Origin: Candidatus Saccharimonadota bacterium
GTDB lineage: Bacteria; Patescibacteriota; Saccharimonadia; Saccharimonadales; Saccharimonadaceae
Direction: 5' to 3'
Assembly (NCBI GenBank): GCA_017510425.1
Contig: JAFWNJ010000029.1
Location: 1-57,744 of the forward strand
DNA length: 57,744 bases
The notes below the pieces were generated by a model. It had not been told where the DNA came from, did not search any database, and saw only the letters and a program-made list of their open reading frames with translations. Below, in pieces: positions 20,836 to 54,487 of the stretch. Numbering within the stretch: the stretch's first letter is position 1; every line of letters begins with the position of its first letter. Position numbers and translations under genes: made by a program.

Positions 20836-21592
20836 TTTCTTTAGAATCATACGAGAAGAGAAAAAGAATTAAGAATTAGGCTTTGAAAAGTCAGAATTTT
20901 GGAGGCAAAAATCAGCCGCGACATGCTTCATTACAATTATGGTTTTAATGTCGCACAATACACATTTTTAGACATAAGCACTTTGGGTTTGGGACGGTTA
21001 AGTTATCGTGAGTCGTGATAGCAAGTGGTCTTTGATAGGTTATTTAAGAAACTAAACAAGATTTGTTATGTTGTGATTATTATCAAAATCCCAGTGCATG
21101 AGCGCCTTACTCGTTGACCATTTTATCCTCTCAATATCATCAATTTAAGCATACCCAACAACAAAGTACTTTCAGGACACGCTCCGGGCCGCTCTGGCCA
21201 AGTCCTCATGTTCCTGAAAGCACTTTGTTTGTTGGGCTTAAAATATGCTTAAATTGATGATATTAAAACACCCTATCAAAGACCCTACAATTATTCGATA
21301 ACTCCTTAAGGGTTCACGGTCGTATTTAGTCGGCTTTTGGCCATTTTTGCCAAATTCCGCCAGATTTTGCTGAATTTGACTTTTCCCCGTTTTTATTTCC
21401 CTATTTGTCTTTTTTCCCTGTTTTTGCTTATGCCTGACATATTAATATCTATCGAGGCTCGAAAAAGTTAGAACAAAAACCGAACATAAAGCAGGGCATT
21501 ACGGAATTACACTCTAGAACAAAAACCGAACACTGCCCTGGCTGACGAATATACCATTTGTCTAGACTGATAAGGTTCAGCGCGCTAGTTAA
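20836..21592 (+). other. 757-bp gene-free region between convergent genes, rich in nested palindromes
   Basis: I see no credible ORF. The region holds palindromic element A1 (21133-21264). Around A1 are two further inverted pairs, GGTCTTTGATAGG (21027-21039) with its complement at 21272-21284, and AGTTATCG (21001-21008) with CGATAACT (21296-21303). Further right, AGAACAAAAACCGAACA occurs twice, at about 21471 and 21513, within an outer AGCAGGGCA/TGCCCTGGCT pair. Confidence 0.6.
21133..21264 (+). repeat. Palindromic element family A, copy A1
   Basis: 132 bases. The outer 21-bp arms (21133-21153 and 21244-21264) are perfectly complementary. They differ from other copies (ATCAATTTAAGCAT instead of TTAACTTAAGCAT) but keep the pairing. 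Inside is the shared core CCCAACAACAAAGTACTTTCAGGA and its partner, around a loop with CACGCTCCGGGCCGCTCTGG. The right arm carries the copy-conserved bulge TTAAA. Confidence 0.9.
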
Positions 21593-25661: not shown

Positions 25662-25712
25662 TGGACGGGTCCTGTCGGCGCTTTCTTCCCCCTTCAGCGC
25701 CGTCACCCGTCC
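25662..25712 (-). repeat. Palindromic element family B, copy B1 (short form)
   Basis: GGACGGGT/ACCCGTCC outer stem, conserved CCTGTC and GTC bulges, inner stem GGCGCT/AGCGCC and loop TTCTTCCCCCTTC. It lacks the inner C/G hairpin of B2 and B3; the difference equals a deletion between two CCCCC repeats. It lies between the ftsI stop and the mraY promoter. Its sequence is written here as on the + strand. Confidence 0.8.
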
Positions 25713-25725
25713 ATATGAAATACTA

Positions 25726-27576
25726 TCAAGCATCACCAGGTTTAATCTTATAATAATCAATGACATAATTCGAGACGCGGTCGAAGAGGTCCATAGCTTC
25801 GCCAGAGCCGATGGATTCGCCTTCGCCCCACATTTTAACCATGACGACATACTCTGGCATGCCACCGCTCGGAGCGATGAAGCCAATATAAGAACCAACT
25901 AGCTCTGCAAAGGAATCATCATAGGCACCATCTCTTACGACCTGGGCGGTACCGGATTTGCCGCCAATGTCGTAACCAAGCCGATCAACGCCTTGTCTGA
26001 CCTTGTAGTTACGGTTATGAATTAGCATTTCGCGCATCATGGCAGAGGTTTCGTCGGACAGAATCTTATCTTCGATAGGCTCTGTTAATTCTTCTCCTTG
26101 AGCGGGTCCTGCCGTCTTCTCTTCCCCCGCTCGGCTCTCGCGGGGGACCCCCTTCGAAGACGTCACCCGCTCTAAAGCAGATTCATCGTCACCCGCCCAT
26201 GCGATATCTTTCACCACCACTGACGGGGTGCGCCAAGTGCCACCATTCACTACAGCTGAGAAGGCGGTGGCGGTTTGGAGCATGGTGATGCCTAAGTTTT
26301 GGCCGAAGGTGATGTTTGCGTAGGTGGAGTCGCGGCCCCAGCCTTCATTAGGATCAGGGATGTAGCCTTCGGCTTCAAACAGCTCGAAGCCAGTAGTGTT
26401 ACCTAGGCGGAATTTATTATGGTAATAATCAAACAGCCTTTCCCTACCCTGCTGAGTGATTTGGTTAGGGTCATCGCCGAGTAGTTTTAGGGCGTAAATC
26501 GAGCCGGTGTTAAGTGACCAATACAGAGCATCTCGCATCGTTAGTGTACCGTACAGACTAGCACGAGTCTCGGCATTCCAAATCTTCCAGCCATCAATTT
26601 CCTCGTAATGCTGATTAAAATAGGTGGTTTCGGGAGTCATTTTGCCTTCATTAATTGCGGCCGAGAAAGCAAAAGTTTTACAGATCGATGCCGGCTCATA
26701 TGGCATGTCTACAGTGTAATTATTAAAAACAGATGCATCCTCAACGCTACTATAATTAGCGGGATCATAGTTAGGCAGATTTGCCATGGCGAGAACCTGA
26801 CTCGTATTAGGATCCATCACTAGCACCGAGGCGTTACTGGCTGGAGTATTATTAATTGCATCTAGGGCAAGGTCTTCGACGCCCTTTTCTAGGCCGCGAT
26901 CGATTGTCAAGACGATGTTTTCGCCATCCTCGGCAGGGATTTTGGTGTTTTCGTTCCCTATTGACAAAGCGACTTTATTAACGTCAGCTGTGGTTTTTAA
27001 AAGCCCGTCTTTACCCGCTAGAATCTGATTCAGAGACCCCTCGACACCGTATTGGCCTTGGCCATCGGCATTGACAAAACCAAGCAGCCCGGAGGCCAGT
27101 TCACCTTCTGGGTAGACACGCTGATTGGTCTTCTTTAACCAAATCGCTGGAGTCTCAGTGGCGATGATTTTTTCAGCGGTTTCGCGCGGTACGTTCTTCG
27201 CTACGATGGCATACCTTAATCCTTCATGGCTATAGATATCATCCAAATCGACGATCTGATAATCCTTGGCATACTCATTTAAAACATTCGTGATGTCTTC
27301 TTGCTTAGTGATAGCCGGGTCAATAATGATTTGATAAGTGGTTTGATTTAGGACCACAGCAACTGGTTCGCCATGATCCATCATATATATTTCACCGCGC
27401 TTCGCGACAATAGTCTCCAGGAGCGTGTGCTGCTCACTGGCCTTAGCCACCCAGGCGTCATGTTCGATAATTTGAATAAAAAATAACCTAGCTGCAATTA
27501 TAAGCATAGCAACTAGGACTAGGTTTCTTAAAATATGGAATCTGCGCTGGGTAGATTTGTAATTATTCTTTGACAT
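25726..27576 (-). CDS. ftsI: Division-type penicillin-binding protein (FtsI/PBP2)
   Basis: 616 residues. One N-terminal transmembrane helix (about 14-30), then a class B PBP dimerisation domain with KRGEIYMMDHG, then the transpeptidase. The active site has Ser297-x-x-Lys300 (PASICK), Ser354-Leu-Asn356 and Lys540-Ser-Gly-Thr (GGKSGTAQ). It crosslinks septal peptidoglycan with FtsW. Residues about 468-492 (KGVPRESRAGEEKTAGPAQ and flanks) are encoded by palindromic element B2 and lie between the SxN and KSG motifs, so the protein carries a repeat-derived loop. It overlaps the ftsL-like gene by 14 bases. Confidence 0.94.
   Translation of the reverse strand: MSKNNYKSTQRRFHILRNLVLVAMLIIAARLFFIQIIEHDAWVAKASEQHTLLETIVAKRGEIYMMDHGEPVAVVLNQTTYQIIIDPAITKQEDITNVLNEYAKDYQIVDLDDIYSHEGLRYAIVAKNVPRETAEKIIATETPAIWLKKTNQRVYPEGELASGLLGFVNADGQGQYGVEGSLNQILAGKDGLLKTTADVNKVALSIGNENTKIPAEDGENIVLTIDRGLEKGVEDLALDAINNTPASNASVLVMDPNTSQVLAMANLPNYDPANYSSVEDASVFNNYTVDMPYEPASICKTFAFSAAINEGKMTPETTYFNQHYEEIDGWKIWNAETRASLYGTLTMRDALYWSLNTGSIYALKLLGDDPNQITQQGRERLFDYYHNKFRLGNTTGFELFEAEGYIPDPNEGWGRDSTYANITFGQNLGITMLQTATAFSAVVNGGTWRTPSVVVKDIAWAGDDESALERVTSSKGVPRESRAGEEKTAGPAQGEELTEPIEDKILSDETSAMMREMLIHNRNYKVRQGVDRLGYDIGGKSGTAQVVRDGAYDDSFAELVGSYIGFIAPSGGMPEYVVMVKMWGEGESIGSGEAMDLFDRVSNYVIDYYKIKPGDA
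26100..26172 (-). repeat. Palindromic element family B, copy B2, inside ftsI
   Basis: 73 bases (described as on the + strand): GAGCGGGT/ACCCGCTC, bulges CCTGCC and GTC, inner stem GTCTTC/GAAGAC, then a hairpin CCCCCGC/GCGGGGG with loop TCGGCTCTC. The central 36 bases are the same as in B3. The reading frame of ftsI stays open through it. Confidence 0.88.
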
Positions 27577-29129: not shown

Positions 29130-29741
29130 CATCTTTTTGTCTGTGTTTTGTTTGAGACCGTTCAACTAGAAACTTCAACGTTTTTGTTTCTGCTTTGATT
29201 TTTGTTTAGTGACACAATGAATCCACCACGATTTACCAGCGCGAAGCTAATCTTATAATCGCAGCCGTTGAGAGACTTATTGTGTTTAGACCATATAGAG
29301 TTTTATTGGGAGGTGTGTTTTAGGGAAAGGAGCACACGATTGTTTTGACGCATCTCGCTTAAAATTTAATGCGCGCGAAGCTCCTAGATGGTCGGCCTCA
29401 AACTGTTTTTAATGTACTTGCCTTCAAGGCTTTTTGTTTAGCGTTTTTATTTATTGTTTCGCTTGAAATGATTGTATTATGTTTTTGATGAAAATGCAAG
29501 TGGTTTTTTAAAGATTTTTGACAAGTTCTTAGATTTGAGGCGAAATAATGTTGGTTACAGGGGTGGTGTTCGGTTAATTATACTTGGTCGTTATAGAGTT
29601 TTCCACAGGTGTGGAAATTGTACTTATGATTTTACCGAACACGGGTGACTTTAGAAACCGAACAAATTGACTTGACTTTGTATATTTTCATGTTTTAATA
29701 TGTCATTCCCTATCCTTCTTTGTAGATCTAGGAGAGGTGGG
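29130..29741 (+). other. 612-bp gene-free region upstream of rsmH
   Basis: No credible ORF. There is a weak GCCTTCAAGGC-TTTTT hairpin near 29421-29436 that could end a + strand transcript. Three CCGAACA-type motifs occur between 29560 and 29670. There are A/T-rich tracts and nothing I can name. Confidence 0.4.
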
Positions 29742-29882
29742 CTCAATGTCATTAACTTAAGCATACTTTAGGCCCAACAGACAAAGTACTTTCAGGAACA
29801 TGAGGACTTGGCTCAAAAGCGGCTCCGGAGCGTGTCCTGAAAGTACTTTGTTGTTGGGCATGCTTAAGTTAATGACGTTGAG
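29742..29882 (-). repeat. Palindromic element family A, copy A2 (reverse orientation)
   Basis: 141 bases with outer arms CTCAATGTCATTAACTTAAG and complement (one G-T wobble). The core CAAAGTACTTTCAGGA and its partner are as in the other copies, but the loop differs (GGCTCAAAAGCGGCTCC). It sits between divergent rsmH and the KwaB-like gene. Confidence 0.9.
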
Positions 29883-31739: not shown

Positions 31740-33668
31740 TTATGGCTGGGCGATGGTGAAGGATTTACCAGATGGTGGAGCTGCGTATTTAGATGTAGTT
31801 TGTCCATAAAGACGGCTAGTAGTATTGTTAATACTATTCCCGTTTGTTTGAGGGATGATTACAGACCAGGTGATGGCGGAGTAGCCGGCATAATAGAACA
31901 TTCTGTTCATGCTTATCACACTAGAAGTGTTCCAGGAGGAAAGATTCAAAGTAAAGGTGGTGGCGGAGTAGCCGGCGCTAAAGAACATGTCACTCATGTT
32001 TGTCACGTTGGAAGTATTCCAGGAAGAAATATCACCGATAGACCAGGTAGTGGCGGAATGACCGGCGCCAGAGAACATGTAGCTCATGTCTGTCACGCTA
32101 GAAGTATTCCAGGATGAAAGATTGCCCACAGACCAGGTGGTGGCGGAGTTGCCGGCAGAATTGAACATGTAGCTCATATCTGTCACGTTGGAAGTATTCC
32201 AGGAAGAGAGATCGCCAATAGACCAGGTGGTGACGGAGTAGCCGGCGTAATAAAACATTCTTCTCATATCTGTCACGTTGGAAGTATTCCAAGAGGAGAG
32301 GTCGCCGATAGACCAGGTGGTGGCGGAGTAGCCGGCGTTAAAGAACATGTAGCTCATGTTTGTCACGTTAGAAGTATTCCAGGAGGAGAGATCGCCGATG
32401 GACCAGGTGGTGGCGGAGCTGCCGGCGTTCATGAACATATAGCTCATGTCTGTTACGTTAGAGGTATTCCAAGAAGAGAGAGCTAAAGTAAAGGTGGTGG
32501 CGGAGCTGCCGGCGTTATAGAACATGTAGCTCATGTTTGTCGCGTTGGAAGTATCCCAATCGGAAATACCAGAAATCTCAGAAAGATTATTAAACATATA
32601 GAACATAAAGGATGAATCAGAGGGCAGGAAGATTTTTTCTCCTTCTGTATAGAAATGCATAATACCAGCATCGTTAGTATTATCAAAGACGATATAAATC
32701 GGCTTCTTAGATGCTGTAGACGAGATAGTGTTCATTTCGGAGGGAGTGAAATCTACAGGAGCAGAGGTTTTAAGATGAACGCTAATAGATTTGATATATT
32801 CATCGCGTGCATCACCCCAATCATAATCACCGCCCGGATCAAATTCTGGAGTAATGGTGGTTTCTTCACCATTTACAATCGTAGCGGCAAGAGATTTCAA
32901 TTTAGAGTTAACTACTTTTCCGGTATCTAGCATAGCAGGGTTAGCGATGGGGGCATCATGACTGCTTGGATGAACCAGAGTATAAATAACCTGTCCACTA
33001 TACGTATCCGCAGCTTGAGTCTTGGAAATGTAGGCAGCATATGTAGTAGTAAGCTTTACTCCACCAGTAGTATTAGTCATATCAGTAGCGGCAGTTTTAT
33101 GAGCGACTTTAACGTATTCATTTGGAACTACATGATAGCTACTAAATGAAGCAGATGTGGTTGACTGTTCTGCTTGACTTGGAAGATCTACATTTGGAGC
33201 AGAATCAATGACAAAAGCATTGGTTTCTGATATGTCACCAGAATCTTGTGTAATTGCTAGTTTCATTGCCCAGTTAGATATATCAGGATTACCAGTTGTT
33301 GTAGCTAGGCCTGATTCTATGGTACTATTTCCACTTGCATTTGTTCCGACTAGTTTATTACTATTCTCTCCACCTATTTCATCTCCTGTATATCCTGCTG
33401 CATAGATAGCGAACCCTTCATTATCATTACAGAATACATGCATAGTAGTAGTACCAATGTCTGGTGTATAGGTACCATTATTAATATTAGTGTTATGGCT
33501 ATCCATACCAGTACCGGACATAGTACAAGACATAGGTACAGTAATACTAATTTGATCTACAGTAGAATTATCATCGGCTGAGACATAAGTAGATGCTAGA
33601 ATCGTAGCCATCATTAGTATAGTTATAATTGGTAAACTTAGTAGTGTTTTACTATATAGCGATTTCAT
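31740..33668 (-). CDS. Secreted BspA-like (DUF285) repeat surface protein
   Basis: 642 residues. A signal peptide (about 1-31, ...YVSA) leads to an N-terminal module of about 210 residues (VDQISITVPMSCTMSGTGMD ... VFCNDNEGFAIYAAGY ... AYISKTQAADTYSGQVIYTLVHP) shared with the protein at 39941. The C-terminal 300 residues are seven to eight DUF285 repeats, each with WNTSNVTDMSYMF. BspA-type repeats bind host proteins in other bacteria. No LPXTG-like motif or C-terminal helix is present, so attachment is unexplained. The initiation region has AAAGG and a promoter some 30 bases upstream. Confidence 0.88.
   Translation of the reverse strand: MKSLYSKTLLSLPIITILMMATILASTYVSADDNSTVDQISITVPMSCTMSGTGMDSHNTNINNGTYTPDIGTTTMHVFCNDNEGFAIYAAGYTGDEIGGENSNKLVGTNASGNSTIESGLATTTGNPDISNWAMKLAITQDSGDISETNAFVIDSAPNVDLPSQAEQSTTSASFSSYHVVPNEYVKVAHKTAATDMTNTTGGVKLTTTYAAYISKTQAADTYSGQVIYTLVHPSSHDAPIANPAMLDTGKVVNSKLKSLAATIVNGEETTITPEFDPGGDYDWGDARDEYIKSISVHLKTSAPVDFTPSEMNTISSTASKKPIYIVFDNTNDAGIMHFYTEGEKIFLPSDSSFMFYMFNNLSEISGISDWDTSNATNMSYMFYNAGSSATTFTLALSSWNTSNVTDMSYMFMNAGSSATTWSIGDLSSWNTSNVTNMSYMFFNAGYSATTWSIGDLSSWNTSNVTDMRRMFYYAGYSVTTWSIGDLSSWNTSNVTDMSYMFNSAGNSATTWSVGNLSSWNTSSVTDMSYMFSGAGHSATTWSIGDISSWNTSNVTNMSDMFFSAGYSATTFTLNLSSWNTSSVISMNRMFYYAGYSAITWSVIIPQTNGNSINNTTSRLYGQTTSKYAAPPSGKSFTIAQP
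31850..32585 (-). repeat. Tandem ~96-bp repeats encoding DUF285 units
   Basis: Seven to eight near-identical units. Each contains GACCAGGTGGTGGCGGAG and TCTGTCACGTTGGAAGTATT (+ strand) with small variations. High DNA identity implies recent expansion or gene conversion. Confidence 0.85.
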
Positions 33669-33781
33669 GTATAGACCTTTCTTATATAACTATAATAACA
33701 TAGTTTTTATGGTTTTATGAAAATAATACAAGAAGATCTATTCTAGATTCAAGCTCATAGTGGCAGGAACCGCAGGTAGTT

Positions 33782-36490: not shown

Positions 36491-38599
36491 GTGATGTTCT
36501 ATGAGGTAATACCTGAAGGTAAGGTGGAAGCACTAACGTACCACTATGATGGCGGCGGCGACAATGGCGATGATAATAGCGATTCCCTTTTTCCTGGACA
36601 AATCGTGACGGTGCCGGTCGGACGACGAATAGTTCCGGGTGTAGTAACTAAAAAAGTTGCACAACCGGATTTTAAAACAAAAGCCATAATTAAAAAATTG
36701 TATTCAAGGCCACTGCCAAAACATTTGTTGGACACGGTGCGGTTTATACATGAATACTACTTGGCCCCATCCGGCTCAGCCTTGTCGCTAGTTTTACCGC
36801 GAGGGGTTGAGAAAAAACGGAGGAAAACCGAACAAATGTTCGGTAGTTCTCTGTTGGGCGCAGGTGACTCCCACGCTTCCTCTCGGGGCGCGTCCAAAAC
36901 CCCTGTCGCCACAGGGGTTTTGGCGCTACCTCTCGCCTTGCCAGGCTCCGAACCCCCTTCGATGAAGCGTGGGAGTCACCTGCCGACTACAGCAAAAACC
37001 GAACATGGCTCAGTTTCGCCCGAAATTCGATTGAATGAGGCGCAGAAAAAGGCGCTTAAAGGCCTCCAGAAGGCTCCAGGAGCCACGAAACTGCTGTTTG
37101 GCGTTACTGGTAGTGGTAAAACCAATATATACCTCAAAATGGCTAAAAATGCGCTAGAACGGCATTTGTCTACTGTGCTATTGGTGCCAGAAATCGCTCT
37201 AACCGGACAGCTGGTGCGGGTGTTTAATGAGCGCTTTGGTGAAAGGGTGATAATGATACATTCTAGGCTGACTGAGGCGGAAAGACATCTGATTTTTGAG
37301 AAAATTCTGATGACGGACGAGTCTCTAATCGTGGTTGGGGCGAGATCGGCATTGTTTGCACCAGTGGCCCACCTTGGATTAATCATAATCGACGAGGAAC
37401 ACGAGGGGACCTATTATCAGGAGAATACACCGAAGTATTCAGCAATACGAGTGGGGAGCTTTATAGCGAAAGCATCAGGAGCTTCCCTGGTGCTTGGTTC
37501 AGCTACTCCGACCGTGGAAGACTATTATCTTGCTTCTAGACAAGAGTCGGTGGTGACTCTGACTAAGAAAGCTAAGTCCTCGGCGATAAAGCCCGCCATA
37601 AGCATTATCGATTTTAAAGATAGGGACAACTTTACCAGGAATAAGTATTTCTCTAATTCCCTACTTACGGCGATTTCGGCTAACCTAAACCAGGGCCAGC
37701 AGACACTGATTTTTCATAACCGTCGGGGGTCAGCACCACTGACAATCTGTGAGAACTGTGGCGAAGAGATTCTCTGTCCGAACTGTTTTTTACCCCTGAC
37801 CCTGCATGCGGATGAGTATGTATTACATTGTCATACATGTGGGTTTTCGGAAAACGTACCTGCTGCGTGTCCGAAATGCGGAACACCAAATTTGGTGCAT
37901 AAGGGATTTGGGACGAAATTGCTAGAGTCAGAGCTTTGTAAGCTTTTCCCTGGAGCGAGAATTAGACGATTCGATGCGGATAATAAAAAGGGCGAAGGTA
38001 TGGATGCCCTATACTCAGCAGTGCGAGACGGCGAGGTCGATATCCTGGTCGGAACCCAAACACTGGCGAAGGGGTTGGATTTACCGCGGCTGGCGACGGT
38101 AGGGGTGGTACAGGCAGATGCCGGATTAGCACTACCGGATTACATGGCGGAAGAGCGCTGTTTTCAGCTGCTAACCCAGGTAATTGGACGGGTAGGGCGA
38201 GGGCATTTGGCCAAGGCGGAGGTGTTTATCCAGACCTTTCGGCCGGAGCATCCGGTGTTAAAACTCGCAGCTGATGAAGATTATCTGGGGTTTTATAAAT
38301 ACTTGATTGCTAAGCGAAGGCGGGCAGGATTTCCGCCGTTTCGGTTCGTAATGAAACTAGAAATTACTATGAAAACAGAGGCGATAGTACTACGAAAAGT
38401 GCGAGAACTCGTGAAACGACTAACTAAAGATGAGAGGCTAATGATTTCCCCACCCCAGCCAGGGTTTCATGAACGAACGGCCAAGGGCTACACTTGGCAA
38501 ATTATCGTCAGGTCGCGCTCGCGGAAAGCTTTACTAGAGGCGTGCGAAGGGCTAGATCAGAGTTTCAAGATAACATTAGATCCGATGGGACTTTTATAG
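36491..38599 (+). CDS. priA: Primosomal helicase PriA with palindrome-derived insertion
   Basis: 702 residues. The N-terminal DNA-binding domain is followed by a helicase with Walker A FGVTGSGKTNIY and the DEAH-type box IIIDEEHEG. A zinc-binding region follows (CENCGEEILCPNC, HCHTCGF, CPKCGT), then the second helicase lobe (LVGTQTLAKGLD, TQVIGRVGRG). PriA restarts stalled forks. Residues about 123-165 are encoded by a 124-bp palindrome (36860-36983) and form a low-complexity linker between the two main domains. A perfect CCGAACAAATGTTCGG palindrome lies just before. GTG at 36491 and ATG at 36494 are both possible starts. Confidence 0.95.
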   Translation: MMFYEVIPEGKVEALTYHYDGGGDNGDDNSDSLFPGQIVTVPVGRRIVPGVVTKKVAQPDFKTKAIIKKLYSRPLPKHLLDTVRFIHEYYLAPSGSALSLVLPRGVEKKRRKTEQMFGSSLLGAGDSHASSRGASKTPVATGVLALPLALPGSEPPSMKRGSHLPTTAKTEHGSVSPEIRLNEAQKKALKGLQKAPGATKLLFGVTGSGKTNIYLKMAKNALERHLSTVLLVPEIALTGQLVRVFNERFGERVIMIHSRLTEAERHLIFEKILMTDESLIVVGARSALFAPVAHLGLIIIDEEHEGTYYQENTPKYSAIRVGSFIAKASGASLVLGSATPTVEDYYLASRQESVVTLTKKAKSSAIKPAISIIDFKDRDNFTRNKYFSNSLLTAISANLNQGQQTLIFHNRRGSAPLTICENCGEEILCPNCFLPLTLHADEYVLHCHTCGFSENVPAACPKCGTPNLVHKGFGTKLLESELCKLFPGARIRRFDADNKKGEGMDALYSAVRDGEVDILVGTQTLAKGLDLPRLATVGVVQADAGLALPDYMAEERCFQLLTQVIGRVGRGHLAKAEVFIQTFRPEHPVLKLAADEDYLGFYKYLIAKRRRAGFPPFRFVMKLEITMKTEAIVLRKVRELVKRLTKDERLMISPPQPGFHERTAKGYTWQIIVRSRSRKALLEACEGLDQSFKITLDPMGLL
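36860..36983 (+). repeat. Long palindromic element inside priA
   Basis: 19-bp perfect arms GCAGGTGACTCCCACGCTT (36860-36878) and complement (36965-36983). Within is a 13-bp perfect hairpin (36894-36906 / 36911-36923) and a GCCTTGCCAGGC element. It shares CCCCCTTCGA with family B but is otherwise different. The frame remains open. Confidence 0.85.
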
Positions 38600-38624
38600 C
38601 GTAATGAGATTGAAGAACCAAATT

Positions 38625-38766
38625 AACTCAATGCTATTAACTTAAGCATGCCCAACAACAAAGTACTTTCAGGACACGCTCCGGGCCGCTCTGGCCAAGT
38701 CCTCATGTTCCTGAAAGTACTTTGTCTGTTGGGCTTAAAGTATGCTTAAGTTAATAGCATTGAATT
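38625..38766 (+). repeat. Palindromic element family A, copy A3
   Basis: Outer arms CAATGCTATTAACTTAAGCAT and exact complement. Core and loop are nearly identical to A1. It lies between the priA stop and the choloylglycine hydrolase gene. Confidence 0.92.
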
Positions 38767-38827
38767 GTGCTAGCGTTTTAATGCGATTATGATAAAATGA
38801 AGTAAATATTTAAAAATAGGAGGTAAA

Positions 38828-46708: not shown

Positions 46709-46851
46709 AATGTAGTGTTATTAACTTAAGCATGCCCAACAAACAAGATATCTTCAGGACACGCTCCGGGCCGCTCTGGCCAAGTCTTCATGTTCCTGAA
46801 GATATCTTGTTTATTGGGCTTAAAGTATGCTTAAGTTAATAACACTGCATT
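46709..46851 (+). repeat. Palindromic element family A, copy A4
   Basis: Outer arms TGTAGTGTTATTAACTTAAG and complement (one G-T pair). The inner stem reads CAAGATATCTTCAGGA on one side and its exact complement on the other, where the other copies have CAAAGTACTTTCAGGA: a double-sided, compensatory change. Between divergent genes, 35 bases before the ATG of the 46886 gene. Confidence 0.92.
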
Positions 46852-48884: not shown

Positions 48885-49751
48885 ATGACAGAGCTAATAA
48901 ATCTTGAGAGGATTAGCCTGAAAAACGATCCTCGCATTAATGAAGACATGATACAGCGCTATCTTTACGAGAACCCTAGCGTACTTGGACTGGGCGATCT
49001 CGTGCCGATTCAGCGTGAGAAGATCCAGACCGCTGGTGGGCGATTGGATCTACTATTCATGAACGATAGTGGTACACGCTATGAGGTAGAAGTACAACTG
49101 GGGCCAACCGATCCTAGCCATATTATCCGAACGATTGAATACTGGGACAATGAGCGCAAGCGGAACCAACAATGTGACCACTGCGCCGTAATTGTGGCCG
49201 AAGAGATAACCGGTAGATTCATGAATGTAATTTCACTTTTCAATGGACATATCCCGCTAATTGCAATTCAGTTGGCAGCCCATAAAGCGGAGAATGGCAA
49301 CGTGTCGCTGACCTTCACTAAGATTATTGATCGCATCACAATGGATGAAGACGAGACAGAGATTGAGCCAACCGATCGTACATATTGGGAGAAGCGTAGT
49401 TCGGCGAGCAAATTAAAAGAGGTAGATAAAATTTTCAGCGATCTTTCTAGTTTGCTAGAGGGTTACGAACTGAAATACAATAAGTTTTATATCGGTACCG
49501 TGAAAGATGGTAAAGTAGAAAACGTAATTAATTTTAAGCCTAAGAAGAAATTTATCAAAATCAACATGCGCGGCAAAGATCATGGCGCTTTACTTGAGAA
49601 ATTAGAAGATGCAGGGCTAGATGCCAGCTACGACGACCGTATCAATATGTACGAACTAAAGATTGATTCGTTTGATGAATATCTAAAGAATCGCGAGATA
49701 ATCACTGAACTGGTAAAGAAGTCCATTGATTATTATAATGGCGGTGATTAA
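48885..49751 (+). CDS. PDDEXK-type nuclease
   Basis: 288 residues. Residues about 35-80 contain the motif GGRLDLLF ... RYEVEVQLGPTDPSHIIRT, a PD-(D/E)xK active site with Asp in RLD, then ExQ in place of ExK, as in RecB/NucS-like nucleases. AVIVAEEITGRFMNVISLFNG follows. The C-terminal 100 residues are a separate domain with Lys-rich strands. The start at 48885 (MTELINLER) has AGGAGA upstream and TATAATT at about 48854. A longer frame from 48747 would overlap the preceding gene. The stop codon is inside the arm of element A5. Confidence 0.78.
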   Translation: MTELINLERISLKNDPRINEDMIQRYLYENPSVLGLGDLVPIQREKIQTAGGRLDLLFMNDSGTRYEVEVQLGPTDPSHIIRTIEYWDNERKRNQQCDHCAVIVAEEITGRFMNVISLFNGHIPLIAIQLAAHKAENGNVSLTFTKIIDRITMDEDETEIEPTDRTYWEKRSSASKLKEVDKIFSDLSSLLEGYELKYNKFYIGTVKDGKVENVINFKPKKKFIKINMRGKDHGALLEKLEDAGLDASYDDRINMYELKIDSFDEYLKNREIITELVKKSIDYYNGGD

Positions 49752-49888
49752 TATGTCATTAACTTAAGCATACTTTAAGCCCAACAGACAAAGTACTTTC
49801 AGGAACATGAAGACTTGGCCTGAGCGGCCCGGAGCGTGTCCTGAAAGTACTTTGTTGTTGGGCATGCTTAAGTTAATGACATTGTAAT
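49747..49888 (-). repeat. Palindromic element family A, copy A5 (reverse orientation)
   Basis: Outer arms ATGTCATTAACTTAAGCAT and complement, extended by ATTA/TAAT across a two-base mismatch. Core as in A2, loop close to A4. It begins at the stop codon of the nuclease gene and ends four bases before the stop of the acyl-CoA ligase. Confidence 0.92.
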
Positions 49889-49892
49889 AATA

Positions 49893-52953: not shown

Positions 52954-53132
52954 TTTAGATTCACTCATCAGTACTTGATAAACCTTATCAGTCATGCGCT
53001 GGGCGGGTCCTGCCGCTTTTTTCTTCCCCCGCTCGGCTCTCGCGGGGGACCCCCTTCAAAAGCGTCACCCGCCCATGCGTTGCTCTGCTGGAGCATATAC
53101 CCATCAATTAACTACTGATGAGTGAATCTAAA
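52954..53132. repeat. Inverted repeat enclosing element B3
   Basis: 20-base perfect arms TTTAGATTCACTCATCAGTA (52954-52973) and complement (53113-53132), locus-specific, bracketing B3 between the divergent rpsA and ROK genes. Confidence 0.8.
53000..53074 (+). repeat. Palindromic element family B, copy B3
   Basis: GGGCGGGT/ACCCGCCC, bulges CCTGCC and GTC, inner stem GCTTTT/AAAAGC, hairpin CCCCCGC/GCGGGGG with loop TCGGCTCTC. Same core as B2, different inner stem but still paired. Confidence 0.88.
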
Positions 53133-54404: not shown

Positions 54405-54487
54405 TGGGCGGGTCCTGTCGCCGTCTCCTCCCCCAAAAATGACACATGCATTTTTGGGGGACCCCCTCCGACGACACCACCCGCCCA
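54405..54487 (+). repeat. Palindromic element family B, copy B4
   Basis: GGGCGGGT/ACCCGCCC, CCTGTC bulge, inner stem with one mismatch (GCCGTC/GACGAC), and hairpin CCCCCAAAAATG/CATTTTTGGGGG. Outer flanks AAAATAGCATTA (54367-54378) and complement (54511-54522) extend the fold up to the stop codons of both convergent genes. Confidence 0.85.

Follow-up and report, generated by a model that had tools for sequence, protein, structure and literature searches.

A palindromic repeat, here designated family B, lies within the coding sequence of the ftsI gene of a Saccharibacterium, and we consider it very probable that this repeat is a non-autonomous mobile palindrome that has been inserted repeatedly into one loop of FtsI and has been kept where it was in frame and tolerated. 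Repeated insertion into ftsI is likelier than one inherited insert, since the bearers are scattered on the FtsI tree and the ftsI copies are closest to copies outside ftsI; the number of gains remains uncertain. The evidence comes from the window, i.e., the whole stretch of DNA analysed (57,744 nucleotides, contig JAFWNJ010000029.1 of assembly GCA_017510425.1), from the rest of the source genome, and from other genomes of the same genus.

The palindrome in ftsI and its family

The host gene encodes an uninterrupted protein of 616 residues that Pfam identified as a penicillin-binding protein (PBP) dimerisation and transpeptidase protein. An earlier note on this DNA had placed a palindrome of 73 bases within this gene and had described it as an insert of about 25 residues between the SxN and KSG motifs. 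Its coordinates proved exact (Table 1), the open reading frame (ORF) is intact, the palindrome belongs to a multicopy family, and residues 469–493 do lie between S354-L355-N356 and K540-S541-G542. The further claim that the insertion does not break the frame holds for the ORF but not for the element taken by itself, as its 73 bp are not divisible by three; the frame is kept because the whole local length change is a multiple of three, this region being 30 residues longer than the usual span of 97 residues and 38 residues longer than in the nearest relative.

The palindrome folds at −41.3 kcal/mol, compared with −27.3 kcal/mol in shuffles (z = −4.6). The partial copy that adjoins it is putatively what is left of an older family-B element, an inference from the match of its sequence to intact 3′ arms. 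The loop formed by residues 469–493 is inferred to be surface exposed from the variable length of the corresponding loop in PDB homologues (~4–20 residues) and across the genus. An AlphaFold model of FtsI, based on an alignment of two sequences only, had a pLDDT of 33.5.

Table 1. Positions within the window of the ftsI host gene, the family-B copies and the palindromes of a third family
Feature	Positions	Strand	Basis
ftsI (penicillin-binding protein), 616 aa, intact, host gene	25726..27576	−	uninterrupted ORF and Pfam
Family-B palindromic element, codes for FtsI residues 469–493 (ERVTSSKGVPRESRAGEEKTAGPAQ)	26100..26172	+ (opposite to ftsI)	covariance-model match 26096–26176, 77.4 bits
Partial family-B copy, 3′ arm CGTCACCCGCCCATGC, read A-W-A-G-D in ftsI, adjoins the full copy	26187..26202	+	matched to intact 3′ arms; remnant inferred
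Short 50-bp family-B copy without inner hairpin, between ftsI stop and mraY	25663..25712	+	covariance-model match, 56 bits
Family-B copy, intergenic, ~90% identical to the ftsI copy	53001..53074	+	
Family-B copy, intergenic, inner hairpin variant AAAAATGACACATGCATTTTT	54406..54486	+	
Third-family palindrome	21130–21282		
Third-family palindrome	29727–29882		
Third-family palindrome	38594–38797		
Third-family palindrome	46709–46851		
Third-family palindrome	49747–49891		

The covariance model recognises 23 family-B copies in the source genome (840 kb) and, across the 174 genomes of the genus, 631 copies spread over 90 of them; at least 20 palindromes of the 840-kb genome have CGGGTCCTG and GTCACCCG arms. 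The genus is assigned to Saccharibacteria because element loci of named records (L120, L125 and L148) are identical to those of its genomes G144 and G280; the window itself was not the basis of this assignment. The conserved ends in an alignment of 38 copies read CGGGTCCTGYCR on one side and YGTCACCCG on the other. Outside these ends lie three to four bases that vary among copies and stay complementary, inside them comes another stem, variable in sequence yet still complementary, and the innermost part is a C-rich/G-rich hairpin that is missing in some copies. Terminal inverted repeats, which are among the criteria for a MITE, are present.

In the stems of the same alignment, 97.0% of the cells are standard pairs versus 75.4% in shuffles, cells with double changes number 123 versus 36.6, and the covariation score is 0.572 versus 0.167 after shuffling and at most 0.13 in slid controls. 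The shuffle count cannot be taken as a probability because the copies are related, a relatedness that the slid controls retain and with which they also fail. As the stems pair far above both shuffles and slid controls, the palindrome is maintained, be it by selection for the hairpin, by copying from arm to arm, or by both. The flanks beyond the element are complementary to their own partners with a mean score of 12.6, versus 9.6 ± 0.22 when they are paired with the flanks of other copies. With the covariance models of Rfam 15, only tRNAs were detected in the window and no known RNA family for the element. Nested copies occur at G000:C12:6994-7127, where a full copy is preceded by two partial 5′ arms and followed by decayed 3′ arms, as if elements had inserted into older elements.

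Other in-frame copies of family B in the source genome are found in ileS, polA, prmC and a gene for a THUMP-type methyltransferase, and near the end of tdk (gene names were taken from the translated sequences, for ileS also from a PDB match). In alignments with relatives, the ileS insert is absent from most and the polA linker is variable. Across the genus, a long ORF spans 30 of 52 sampled copies, a figure that reflects an ORF criterion and does not establish a gene for every copy. Both in ileS and in a gene for a probable cysteine desulfurase, the same sites are used in several species. In the latter gene (L237, L239, L247 and L258), family B sits at the same site in four species and always forward, whereas the ftsI copies are always reversed.

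FtsI loops across the genus and rival explanations

FtsI homologues were compared in 40 and then in 174 genomes, and 107 FtsI loci were examined for the loop. A copy recognised by the covariance model lies within the loop in 14 of these loci, two further loops (L211 and L218) look by eye like decayed copies, and the insert is absent from the other 91. The expectation of the earlier note that the loop would be lacking in some relatives was thus borne out: it is missing from most, including the closest one (G271, L209; 87% identical over residues 2–455), in which FtsI reads ...GGTWRTPSILAEKKLTESVEDKILSDETS. Long loops in relatives consist almost always of this repeat family and not of unrelated DNA; the condition that the earlier note had named as refuting the idea was that all relatives carry the same loop with unrelated DNA. 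Most non-bearers have a loop of 21–24 residues. All inserts have a single orientation relative to ftsI and they occur in two reading frames (RVT... and TGD...).

The 16 bearers are dispersed over an FtsI tree from which the loop was left out, with 15 state changes of which at least 11 are forced by well-supported branches; the tree was obtained by a quick search and several branches are only modestly supported. None of the 10 most distant rows has an insert. For 12 of the 12 ftsI copies compared, the closest match is a copy outside ftsI; the copy of the source genome best matches its own tdk copy, and that of G144 another copy in the G144 genome. A single origin of the inserts is disfavoured by the two frames, the tree and the kinship of the copies.

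We regard it as unlikely, though not to be set aside, that the ftsI loop received inserts only once or twice, long ago, followed by vertical inheritance, many losses by internal deletion and the overwriting of survivors by gene conversion. Footprint-like residues are found in several short loops of non-bearers (e.g., L280 ...DSTSPVERI and L299 ...TDDAENK), which implies that part of the scatter is loss, several copies in the b frame have the common flanks ACATSGACGGGTGAC...GTCGAGAR, and gene conversion among copies could mimic an independent origin. However, the two frames and the slightly shifted positions require at least two insertions, the loops of most non-bearers are normal in length, as are those of most of the 10 most distant rows, and the ftsI copies best match copies elsewhere. 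In addition, a full ftsI copy adjoins an older partial one not only in the source genome but also in three others. Among the sequences compared, no near-identical strain offered a clean empty site; the closest filled/unfilled pair (L216/L299, 91% DNA identity) was rejected as such because the footprint is kept in L299.

A co-opted role, in which the hairpin in the ftsI mRNA or the G/E/R-rich FtsI loop serves expression control or contacts between division proteins and is selected at this site, seems improbable to us. If 631 copies were scattered at random, ~0.09 would be expected in any one 100-bp site, and the matches at the ftsI site are far above this value, which assumes independence and is a yardstick only; the single orientation in ftsI and the paired changes that keep the stems even in coding copies also fit with a function. 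Most species of the genus nevertheless lack the insert, the two frames give different peptides, family B and a second family strike many unrelated tolerant loops, and the orientation looks site-specific at other loci too.

Mobilisation of family B as a REPIN by a RAYT (REP-associated tyrosine transposase) has very little to recommend it. The repeat is palindromic, multicopy and dispersed like REPs (PMC3116915, PMC3733652), but no Y1_Tnp, the only transposase family searched for, was found in the source genome, the enzyme is present in 8 of the 174 genomes of the genus versus 90 with the repeat, and the consensus of 38 copies has no GTAG tag. A RAYT was rejected as the mobiliser because the gene is missing here and in most of the genus. 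There was no match that would indicate carriage of the element by a phage or plasmid, and its exact pattern was present in 7 of 2.9 million viral contigs. Ordinary variation in loop length or an assembly artefact without any mobile repeat, for which the general variability of the PBP loop and a draft assembly with 5% estimated contamination could be cited, is refuted by a multicopy family whose copies elsewhere in the genome are ~90% or more identical to the insert and by similar inserts in independently assembled genomes, and can practically be excluded.

According to the preferred reading of repeated insertion, family B would be a short (~45–95 bp), REP/MITE-like, non-autonomous element that has multiplied in this genus of Saccharibacteria and can insert both between and within genes. 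Intragenic inserts would persist if they are in frame, give a reading without stops and fall in a loop tolerant of extra residues, and the FtsI loop between SxN and KSG may be such a tolerant place that has been struck repeatedly. The source lineage would have received one insertion after its split from the nearest sampled relative, beside the remnant of an older copy. We infer that the element moved as DNA, that a mobilising enzyme is supplied in trans and that the element is retained because it is harmless; no movement was observed, no such enzyme was identified, and a target-site duplication of family B was not identified either.

Other palindromic families and their outer arms

Family C, with the core CCCGTAACGACGGG, is represented by 21 exact cores in the source genome and by none in a reversed-pattern control, and 16 of the 20 copies examined are located within long ORFs. 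The genes in which it sits in frame, many of them essential, include obg (two copies), argS, valS, alaS, mnmA, gatA, gatB, typA and ychF (named from their sequences, obg also by a PDB match). A third palindrome family, ~140 bp long and very stable, has TTAACTTAAGCAT arms and no copy inside a long ORF (Table 1). The window further encodes a protein of 649 residues (31743–33689, − strand) with six imperfect 30-residue repeats of the SSWNTSNVTDMSYMF type, which have a period of 90 bp in the DNA.

The long outer arms of family C vary from one locus to the next. Within obg, DLIADLT is encoded by the right arm and aligns with a conserved motif of known Obg structures, and the left arm is the inverted complement of the right arm and falls in an extra segment. 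In ileS, the left arm GCGGATTCAG is also present in the insert-free G399, with CTGAATCCGC on the other side of the insert. These arms suggest either that host DNA was copied in inverted form during insertion or that the two arms were later corrected against each other by template switching, which has not been shown for the ftsI copy; in view of deletion footprints (e.g., in G271), the derivation of the arms from the host is not proven.

We put forward only tentatively, as a possibility short of a probable one, that the coding palindromes of Saccharibacteria, together with palindromes of related core from Omnitrophota and other CPR, form a new class in which hairpin- or replication-templated insertion duplicates neighbouring host DNA as an inverted arm. 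If this were true, outer stems would be host-derived and locus-specific, sites and orientation would recur across species, and essential proteins would repeatedly gain new peptide segments. The locus-specific and apparently host-derived arms, best seen in obg and ileS, point towards an as yet unresolved chemistry of insertion.

Among the matches listed, the core pattern is found in further phyla as well, and complementary outer bases are seen in 7 of 9 matches from Omnitrophota, in 5 of 6 from Saccharibacteria and in 2 of 37 from Actinobacteria, Proteobacteria and others; the listed matches from Rokubacteria have an extended sequence of their own in common. Those in Omnitrophota and Saccharibacteria look real, and most of the actinobacterial and proteobacterial ones are probably due to chance. 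In Omnitrophota (L088, L094, L099, L116 and L131) and other CPR (L115 and L092), the CGGGTCCTGYCR...YGTCACCCG core is accompanied by extended, locus-specific outer stems.

Comparison with known palindromic repeats

Family B resembles GTAG REPs and REPINs in being made up of dispersed palindromes with stems that are variable yet paired, but it does not meet their definition, as the 38-copy consensus has GTAG at neither end and the genome has no RAYT of the family searched for. Like QMITE of Coxiella and other bacterial MITEs (PMC5896051, PMC10969869), it is non-autonomous, has inverted ends and is sometimes found in ORFs; unlike these, it is shorter, and neither a target duplication nor a parental insertion sequence was identified (only Y1_Tnp was searched for). 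CGTC-tagged REPs, which include RPE-4, RPE-6 and dRS3 of Neisseria (Di Nocera et al. 2013, PMC3733652), are defined by an unpaired CGTC at the outer end, a stem of 8–9 bp that starts with AT/AT, a loop of 4–5 nt and a CCA-like tail; intragenic copies are known, and a dedicated transposase is not (PMC3733652). Family B shares with them a CGTC beside a GC-rich stem and a CC-rich tail on the partner strand. However, its CGTC and CCTG are inside the hairpin, i.e., the arrangement is inside-out, the element measures ~73–95 bp, and the stem does not start with AT/AT, the pair next to A-T being C-G. A search of 394 loci gave no case of the conventional arrangement, and family B does not fit the definition of a CGTC-REP.

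The earlier note drew a parallel with Rickettsia palindromic elements (RPE; Ogata et al. 2000, 2002, cited in PMC5896051 and PMC3733652), which is apt and even stronger than was claimed, because many such in-frame inserts are present in essential genes of this genome. Both systems consist of palindromic repeats of tens to ~150 bp that belong to several families, lie in spacers as well as in frame within functional and often essential genes, and are carried by a small host-dependent bacterium. Family B differs in its unrelated host lineage (Saccharibacteria, CPR), in striking the same loops (ftsI, ileS and cysteine desulfurase) in several species, and in stems that reach into locus-specific flanks; no relationship in sequence is claimed. 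As a multicopy, dispersed palindrome that lies in frame in intact genes and is absent from the orthologues of relatives, family B satisfies these criteria of an RPE-like functional class, whose further mark, a tolerant and surface-exposed position, is only inferred here, and, by analogy, it behaves functionally like the coding palindromes of Rickettsia.

The view that such elements are rare and undescribed in CPR needs qualification in its first part, given that in-frame intragenic REPs have already been reported in several bacteria outside CPR (PMC3733652); as to its second part, no report of such elements in CPR was found in the literature searched, the coverage of which was incomplete. With 174 genomes of one genus that differ in presence or absence at the same loops, one can ask how palindromes enter genes, whether sites are targeted or only tolerated, and whether new protein segments originate by this route. 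In the annotation of these genomes, in-frame inserts within conserved proteins are to be expected. Coding palindromes, so far a curiosity known from Rickettsia and a small number of other bacteria, are found here in a CPR bacterium, a gut Saccharibacterium, where they belong to more than one family and lie in many essential genes, and the same FtsI loop is used in many species.
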